A stretch of 32,789 bases of DNA from Nitrospirota bacterium (GTDB lineage Bacteria > Nitrospirota > UBA9217). Made by a program: the position numbers and the translations under genes. Below, piece after piece: positions 14,926 to 21,347 of the stretch. Every line of letters begins with the position of its first letter. The stretch's first letter is position 1. A model generated the notes under the pieces. It was not told the DNA's origin. It saw nothing but the letters and a program-made list of their open reading frames with translations, and searched no databases. The stretch covers positions 1 to 32,789 of the forward strand of contig JAKAHZ010000023.1 of the NCBI GenBank assembly GCA_021814615.1, written 5' to 3'.

Positions 14926-14955
14926 GATCCTGTTGCAAGGGTGAAAGGAGCGGAC

Positions 14956-15273
14956 ATGGGCGGAACGATAACACCTGATGATCTGGAATCGTTGTTGAAA
15001 ACTAAGGATCGTCCACTTGTTCTGGATGTGCGCAGGGCTGCGGATAAGCAGAGCGATCCAGCGACGCTCCCGGGAGCGGCGTGGAAGGATCCGGAAAAAG
15101 CGTCGGAGTGGGGCAAGGATCTGGCGAACCAGGACGTGGTCATCTACTGTGTGCGCGGCGGCTCGGTCAGCAAATCGGTGCAGGAGAAGCTCCTGTCGCT
15201 CAAGGTGAACGTGAAGTACGTCGAAGGCGGACTTGAGGCGTGGAAGAAGGCGGGGAAGGAAGTGATGAAGTAA
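14956..15273 (+). CDS. Single-domain rhodanese
   Basis: 105 aa, cytoplasmic. VLDVRRAAD, LPGA and the active-site loop YCVRGGSVSK with C65 are kept, followed by VEGGLEAWKKAGK. Rhodaneses carry sulphane sulphur on the loop Cys. ATG 14956 has AAGGAG at 14945-14950; an in-frame GTG at 14941 would overlap that ribosome site. It is 21 bp from the next gene and likely cotranscribed with it. Confidence 0.9.
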   Translation: MGGTITPDDLESLLKTKDRPLVLDVRRAADKQSDPATLPGAAWKDPEKASEWGKDLANQDVVIYCVRGGSVSKSVQEKLLSLKVNVKYVEGGLEAWKKAGKEVMK

Positions 15274-19740: not shown

Positions 19741-21159
19741 CTAGGGCTTCTCGATCTTCGCGTTCCCGTCCTTGTCGATCTCCACCTTGGCGTTCAGGAA
19801 CGAAACGTTGTAGCCCTTTTCCTTCAGCTTGTGGTAGGCCATCTCGGCGCGGACGCCTGTGGAGCAATGGGTCACGATCTTCTTGTCCTTCGGGATCTCG
19901 GCAAAGCGGTCGAGGATCTCCTCGTCCGGAACGAGCAGGGCGCCCTTGATCATGCCGGCGTTGCCCTCGTCCCGGTTCCGCACGTCGAGGATCAGCGTGT
20001 CCGCAGGCGTGCTGGCCATGATCTTCTTGAACTCGTCGATCGCTATCTCGCCGGGGCGCGGCTTGGGAACGTAGACGATGTTCTCCGCCAGCTTGCCGGT
20101 CATGACCGGATAGCCCGCGGCCTTCCATGACTCGAACCCGCCCGACACGACGTCAACGGGAGCGTATCCCGCCGCGATCAGCGCTTTAGCCGCCTTCACC
20201 GCGTCGCCCTCGCCTTTCTGGTCATAGACCATGATCGGCGCTTTCTTGTCCTTGGCCGGGAACTTGGCAAGCGACTTCTCGATCTCCGCCGCGGGGACGG
20301 TCACGGCGCCCTTGATGAATCCGGCTTCGGCTGCCTTGGCCGGCCGCACGTCCACGAGCACGTGCGGGATGTCTTTGTCGATCCATGCTTCCTTCAGGAA
20401 CTGCGTTGACAGCACCAGGTAATTCCGCTTCACCCACTCCGGCACGCCGTCGTGGTAAACCTTGACATTGGTGTAACCAAGCTTCTCCGCCTTACCGGCA
20501 GAGTCGGGGCTCATCGCTCAGGTGATCCCTGCGCAGTAGTAGACGATCAGGCTCGCCTTGTCGGCAGGGAGCTTGTCCTTCATCTTGTCGAAAGCGGGAA
20601 AGGGGATGTTGACGGCAGTGGCGATCGATCCGTCCTGGAACCGGGGCAGGGGCCGCGCGTCGATCAGCAGGTATTTCCCCTTTTCCGGGCCCATTGCCAC
20701 GAGCTTCTCCACGTCCTCGGTCCTGACCTGCTTTTCCGGCGCGATCTTGATCGGCGGCTTGGCGATCAGCGCGCTCGCGAATTTCTTTCCGTCCTTTTCG
20801 GTGTACTCGATCCGTACTTCTTTGCCCTTCTTGAGAGCCCGGAGCGGCTGCTCGGCAATCTCAGCCGCCACCTGGTGGAGATTTTCGATCTTGAGATTCT
20901 CGTCGAACCTCAGGATCTCGGTGGCGTCATCGATCTTGATCTGGATCGACTGGGTCTTGTACGCCACGCTGTCGAAGTTGCCCCGCATGCTCCCGGGTTG
21001 CGGCTGGTGGCAGTTCGCGCAGACCTTGGCCACCGTCGGCTTTGGCTGCGCTGCTGCCGGTGCTGCAGGCGCCGGCGCCTTTTCCTCGGCAAGGGCCGGC
21101 CCGATCGTCAGCGCCGAGACCAATGCGAGGGAAAGGCAGGTAATCCCTTTACGCAACAT
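19741..21159 (-). CDS. Secreted haem-motif triple-rhodanese protein, probable selenoprotein (Sec214)
   Basis: 472 aa if the in-frame TGA at 20520-20518 is read as selenocysteine. ATG 21159 follows AAGGAGG. Residues 1-24 are a Sec signal peptide, and CANCH (47-51) is a c-type haem motif. Rhodanese domain 1 (about 143-245) has the loop YYCAGITU (C209, U214). Domain 2 (about 255-355) has VYDQKG in place of an active Cys and is likely inactive. Domain 3 (about 368-450) has THCSTGVRAE with C432. Sequence on both sides of the TGA is one continuous rhodanese fold in one frame; the downstream ATG (20514) has no ribosome site and would start inside the loop. A stem-loop fitting a bacterial SECIS follows (20503-20485). 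A nonsense mutation is the alternative. The role is probably periplasmic sulphur transfer. Confidence 0.82.
20485..20503 (-). promoter_or_regulatory. Putative bacterial SECIS element
   Basis: On the minus strand, CTCTGCC and GGCGGAG form a 7-bp stem (one G-U pair) around the loop GGTAA. The loop starts 21 bases after the TGA. Bacterial SECIS elements have the loop about 16-37 bases after the UGA, with a G among its first two bases. Both conditions hold. Confidence 0.65.
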
Positions 21160-21347
21160 AGTTTTCCTCCTTACATGAGATGTAAGCCCGAAGGCGTTCA
21201 AACTTGAAACAGCAGCGAACAGGGAAGGCAAATAAATGTCCTTGCGACTTGAAAAAGGGAGAATGTTGTCTTATGTATGTAAAGGAACAGCGGACGGACG
21301 GTCCCAAGCGAAGCAGGGCCTGGATGAACCCATGATTAATAGTTTAT

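Follow-up and report, generated by a model that had tools for sequence, protein, structure and literature searches.

The question raised by this locus is whether a TGA triplet in the middle of a rhodanese gene ends the protein or is read as an amino acid. The gene lies in the window (the whole stretch of DNA that was analysed, 32,789 nt) and, judged from its sequence and that of its relatives, very probably encodes one secreted selenoprotein in which UGA 214, located in the loop of rhodanese 1, stands for selenocysteine (Sec). The features of the gene are the following:

19741..21159, minus strand: whole gene of the predicted selenoprotein, 472 amino acids with TGA read as U, stop TAG; full-length orthologues are in one frame
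21164..21172 (approximate), minus strand: Shine-Dalgarno-like AAGGAGG upstream of ATG 21159, read directly in CATGTAAGGAGGAAAACTATG
21088..21159, minus strand: putative signal peptide, residues 1-24 (MLRKGITCLSLALVSALTIGPALA), recognised by eye; model confidence is low for residues 1-36
21007..21021, minus strand: CxxCH motif C47-A-N-C50-H51, possible haem c site, invariant in a 32-sequence alignment
20761..20991, minus strand: beta-rich domain, residues 57-133, from the AlphaFold model
20428..20691, minus strand: rhodanese domain 1, residues ~157-244, loop YC209AGITU214AMS; PF00581, 53.5 bits across the TGA
20518..20520, minus strand: TGA codon 214 of 472, read as selenocysteine on the basis of translation, homologue codons and hairpin
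20116..20373, minus strand: rhodanese domain 2, residues ~263-348, VYDQKGEGD at the catalytic position (no Cys); PF00581, 59.2 bits, and alignment
19792..20037, minus strand: rhodanese domain 3, residues ~375-456, classic loop HC432STGVR with C432 invariant; PF00581, 54.7 bits

The frame runs from ATG 21159 to TAG 19743-19741 and is uninterrupted but for the TGA at 20520-20518. The original prediction had given the coordinates of this codon correctly, and the peptides it quoted on either side match the translation. The span it assigned (20485-21159) contains the TGA but not the whole gene, which continues to 19741, is about twice as long and includes two more rhodanese domains. The single domain that it saw split by the TGA is confirmed by the PF00581 match running across the codon. 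A gene caller would split this selenoprotein gene into two broken genes. In the window the gene's neighbours are a YegS-like lipid kinase and ffh, which give no clue to its function. The window also contains, at 14941-15273 on the plus strand, another rhodanese of one domain that has no TGA; a small membrane protein follows it.

One genome per species was scanned for relatives, which gave 40, and more were added by searching 60 relatives, 76 genomes from the family to which a Geobacter MAG (G065) belongs, and 296 genomes from the phylum. The triplet corresponding to codon 214 is TGA in 29 distinct sequences of more than 43% identity (down to 44%, the window's own included) and in 9 further, more distant ones, and it is a Cys codon (TGT or TGC) in 53 others, each of them one uninterrupted frame; the alignment thus agrees with the Cys that had been expected from homologues. 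The 29-sequence group is nearly all Nitrospirota, the exception by name being a MAG labelled Deltaproteobacteria (L043), whose gene is placed inside the Nitrospirota clade of the window, either as a mislabelled genome or by transfer. Most of the Cys forms belong to Geobacterales and Betaproteobacteria; two are Nitrospirota tips (L138 and L152). Other residues at this position were seen once each: Asp (GAT) in L124 and Trp (TGG) in a divergent relative, L078. On a tree of 92 rows the Sec/Cys label requires five changes, a repeated exchange at the end of the rhodanese loop, where the classic enzyme has Arg. In nine orthologues Ks is far above Ka before and after the TGA (in L026, Ka 0.13 and Ks 0.93 before, Ka 0.12 and Ks 0.83 after), and selection, estimated from these substitutions, is purifying on both sides.

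These relatives bear on the reading in which UGA really terminates translation and a second start at ATG 20514 yields a double-rhodanese protein beside a truncated one. The window does have an in-frame ATG one codon past the TGA, and some start codon occurs within five codons in 15 of 37 TGA sequences; the remaining 22 have none, so the downstream ATG is not conserved. No Shine-Dalgarno-like sequence precedes ATG 20514-20512, as had been noted from the start, unlike ATG 21159 with its AAGGAGG. The cut would land within the loop of the domain 1 active site, dividing a continuous PF00581 match, and the 53 Cys orthologues are not interrupted there. We regard two genes as very improbable. Still less credible is a pseudogene or a sequencing or assembly error, with a Cys codon lately turned into TGA: the source is a draft assembly and TGC to TGA is one base change, but the same TGA, with no other stop, recurs across many independent assemblies, single-contig genomes included, and Ka stays well below Ks downstream of it. 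The original prediction had named a TGC or TGT on resequencing as the finding that would speak against it, and the conservation of the triplet gives no sign of such an error.

Decoding as Sec calls for a signal in the messenger, and one region is a candidate:

20482..20517, minus strand: bacterial SECIS-like region, stem 20503-20497 with 20491-20485, loop GGUAA 20496-20492

The hairpin has seven pairs (one U.G) and its GGUAA loop, with a G in the loop, begins exactly 21 nt after the TGA, just as described in the original prediction. Taken alone it is unexceptional against shuffles (z -1.5 for a 51-nt stretch) and an Rfam scan of the window gave no match at gathering score; its significance, as a sequence argument, comes only from comparison with relatives. 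The stem was compared column by column, no gaps being needed in the region. Stem pairs are formed in 94% of cases in TGA orthologues versus 64% in Cys orthologues, a contrast that is partly a coding effect as the amino acids of the hairpin region also differ between the two groups. When the same peptides were recoded with synonymous codons, TGA sequences had 6.6 of 7 pairs observed versus 4.6 expected, and Cys sequences 4.5 versus 3.6. One stem pair covaries among TGA sequences (U-G, C-G and U-A), and in the Nitrospirota Cys revertants L138 and L152 the hairpin is weaker than synonymous recoding predicts (z +1.5 and +1.9). Compared with the 94/64 contrast, cleaner tests are provided by the synonymous control and by these revertants. 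In some single TGA sequences (e.g. L077, L142 and L151) the hairpin energy is not better than the null. A hairpin of the right spacing, conserved with covariation only in TGA carriers, is thus the outcome of the folding that had been proposed for this region, and the two revertants, in which the hairpin has decayed, offer clean evidence from nature of how a SECIS disappears together with its UGA.

The machinery that would read this signal was identified in the source genome (3.49 Mb, 94% complete, 211 contigs), where the original prediction had suggested looking for four genes and all four were found: selA (602 bits), selB (372 bits), selD (379 bits) and one tRNA-Sec, the selC product (60.8 bits versus a gathering score of 47, anticodon TCA, UCA in the RNA). 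The selD gene carries one in-frame TGA of its own at SHGAGUACK, a known Sec site of the SelD family, and so provides an internal positive control. Among the Nitrospirota genomes with the TGA form that were tested, selA is present in 10 of 11, the eleventh assembly being 74% complete, and it is absent from most of the tested Betaproteobacteria with the Cys form. UGA 214 would then be decoded as selenocysteine by SelB, tRNA-Sec and the hairpin that lies within the 36 nt following it. Decoding as another, selenium-free residue (Trp, or Cys by mis-decoding) can be set aside as hardly credible, since, apart from the TGG of L078, the residue found in place of Sec is overwhelmingly Cys, only TGA carriers conserve the hairpin, the genome has the Sec machinery, and other genes of the window end normally in TGA, which means that the genetic code has not been reassigned overall.

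TGA-bearing rhodaneses were also identified elsewhere. The source genome has a second, small secreted rhodanese (L004, contig C205, 1405-1830, plus strand) with a TGA at 1684-1686 in the same loop position (FYCRGVGUSLSR); its relatives have TGA (L081) or TGT (L079 and L080) there. A genome of the window's genus contains a rhodanese with VFYCKGPKUTKS and TGA (L136, 300-977). In the Geobacter family set, a distant triple-rhodanese group (L126-L132, L134 and L135) has TGA at the same loop position in all members, with loops WCGGPTUPFS or WCGGITUGMS and, in L128, a lipoprotein-like signal; the distant Sec lipoproteins lack CxxCH in the alignment. Finally, three small rhodaneses of the same set (L176, L180 and L184) have YCSG(T/S)TU with TGA.

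Reading codon 214 as Sec, the protein has three PF00581 stretches (159.3 bits in total versus a Pfam cut-off of 22.2), and in its AlphaFold model the pLDDT averages 87 over the whole length. Domain 1 is modelled with a strand at 204-208, a loop and a helix at 216-226, residues 209-215 being the strand-loop-helix active-site loop. A Cys at the catalytic position is invariant in domains 1 and 3 (C209 and C432) and lacking in domain 2, which is probably inactive. In classic rhodaneses the loop-end residue (C+5) is Arg or Thr, and here this is the position of the TGA. The original prediction of a rhodanese with Sec in its active-site loop is supported, with the correction that the catalytic Cys is C209 and the TGA codon the loop end; it had also missed the catalytic Cys of the third domain, the inactive-looking second domain and the CxxCH motif. 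U214-A-M-S217 forms a UxxS motif inside the rhodanese domain, S217 being invariant in the 32-sequence alignment. CxxCH occurs once in the protein and the Pfam cytochrome match is weak (E 0.071, below cut-off); haem at C47-H51 is a possibility suggested by the motif. Foldseek against the PDB returned nothing but generic multi-rhodanese proteins, whose TM-scores over the full length were low.

The function of the Sec residue was considered by analogy with the yeast rhodanese RDL2, in which a persulfide is formed on Cys106 and the loop-end Arg111, which is needed, drives thiosulfate decomposition (PMC8533005). Sec214 occupies the position of Arg111, which is Cys in the BH2092 rhodanese, and from this we infer that it may resolve a persulfide. 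Cys209 would accept sulfane sulfur as a persulfide, the donor being thiosulfate, polysulfide or a comparable compound. Sec214, an efficient nucleophile, would attack the persulfide, whereby sulfide would be released and a Cys-Sec bond would form, to be reduced again; alternatively, the sulfur could be passed on to Cys432 of rhodanese 3. Resolution of a Cys209 persulfide by Sec214 is the most likely chemistry by inference, at moderate to low confidence. Counting against it are the lack of a PhsA-like partner in the source assembly and in most other Sec-form genomes tested, a CxxCH that is single and goes unrecognised as a cytochrome by Pfam, and the missing CxxCH of the distant Sec lipoproteins.

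The genomic context of the Cys orthologues touches the same subject. Among the loci compared from Geobacterales and Betaproteobacteria the Cys orthologue is often (at 13 loci) near a PhsA-like (thiosulfate-reductase-like) molybdoenzyme, and some loci also contain NrfD, an Fe-S protein, a DUF3373 protein, an octaheme cytochrome of the tetrathionate-reductase family or a sulfur transporter. Such neighbourhoods point to respiratory sulfur chemistry outside the cytoplasm for these predicted proteins. A search of the source assembly gave no PhsA-like enzyme, and of 11 other genomes with the Sec form that were tested only 2 had it, one of these being distant. As a functional link here the PhsA-like partner was rejected: the synteny is good for the Cys forms, but the partner is missing from the source assembly.

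The protein could also be a selenoprotein in which Sec serves redox or metal chemistry (reduction of disulfides or peroxides, handling of oxyanions or metals) and not the release of sulfane sulfur. Most known Sec residues are redox catalysts, and the rhodanese-like ExtH belongs to a Geobacter cluster affecting selenite reduction (PMC5877670). Against this are the sulfur-oriented neighbours of the Cys orthologues (the PhsA-like molybdoenzyme, NrfD, a YeeE-type sulfur transporter and the octaheme cytochrome) and the classic sulfurtransferase loop retained in the third domain, so that we consider such a role possible, though the less likely one. Within the persulfide reading, a more ambitious proposal is a new family of exported selenoenzymes with a haem motif and three rhodanese domains, in which the loop-end selenol would resolve the persulfide and be re-reduced by electrons via CxxCH, the enzyme acting as a sulfane-sulfur reductase and not as a transferase; this we hold to be rather unlikely as a whole. 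The repeated Sec/Cys exchange at the Arg position of the rhodanese loop end makes selenium-assisted rhodanese chemistry testable.

Selenoproteins with rhodanese domains are already catalogued in five forms (PMC13188914). Form 1 is a rhodanese-like domain-containing selenoprotein (PF00581, UxxS, WP_010941598.1; PMC13188914) and, compared by motif only, it shares with the window protein the rhodanese domain, the U-x-x-S motif (here U-AMS) and bacterial Sec insertion; the window protein differs in having three rhodanese domains and CxxCH. The small single-domain Geobacterales rhodaneses with TGA, L180 and L184 (YCSGSTUGQS), may be form 1, and L176 is likewise a possible member. Among NCBIfam selenoprotein models the best match for domain 1 is TsoB (NF045694; rhodanese/DsbD fusion-like, UxxxxU, form 5, PMC13188914), which has the same spacing of chalcogen residues; the score is 76.5 bits versus a cut-off of 805, the first residue of the pair is here Cys, and no DsbD-like part was detected in the window protein. 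The model rhodanese_LYCAU (NF041203; CxU, form 3) has a rhodanese fold with optional Sec and matches domain 2 with 84.3 bits versus a cut-off of 115, its CxU differing from the CxxxxU found here. The BH2092 rhodanese (PDB 3nhv and 3o3w) is related to domain 1, has a solved structure and carries Cys in both positions of the loop (YCWGPAC), although it is a single domain and lacks Sec. Two proteins of Geobacter sulfurreducens were likened by description (PMC5877670, PMC6148476): ExtH, exported, rhodanese-like and of ~49 kDa, is described without Sec, and ExtKL, with selenocysteine and haem motifs, is described without rhodanese; no ext-type cluster was recognised around the loci examined. No NCBIfam model was above cut-off for a CxxCH and triple-rhodanese protein, and the literature search returned no paper describing such a selenoprotein, a prior description by Haft and colleagues being possible. 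We therefore call the window protein a variant within the already catalogued rhodanese selenoproteins, to which it contributes a multi-domain family that is well supported and occurs in many Nitrospirota.
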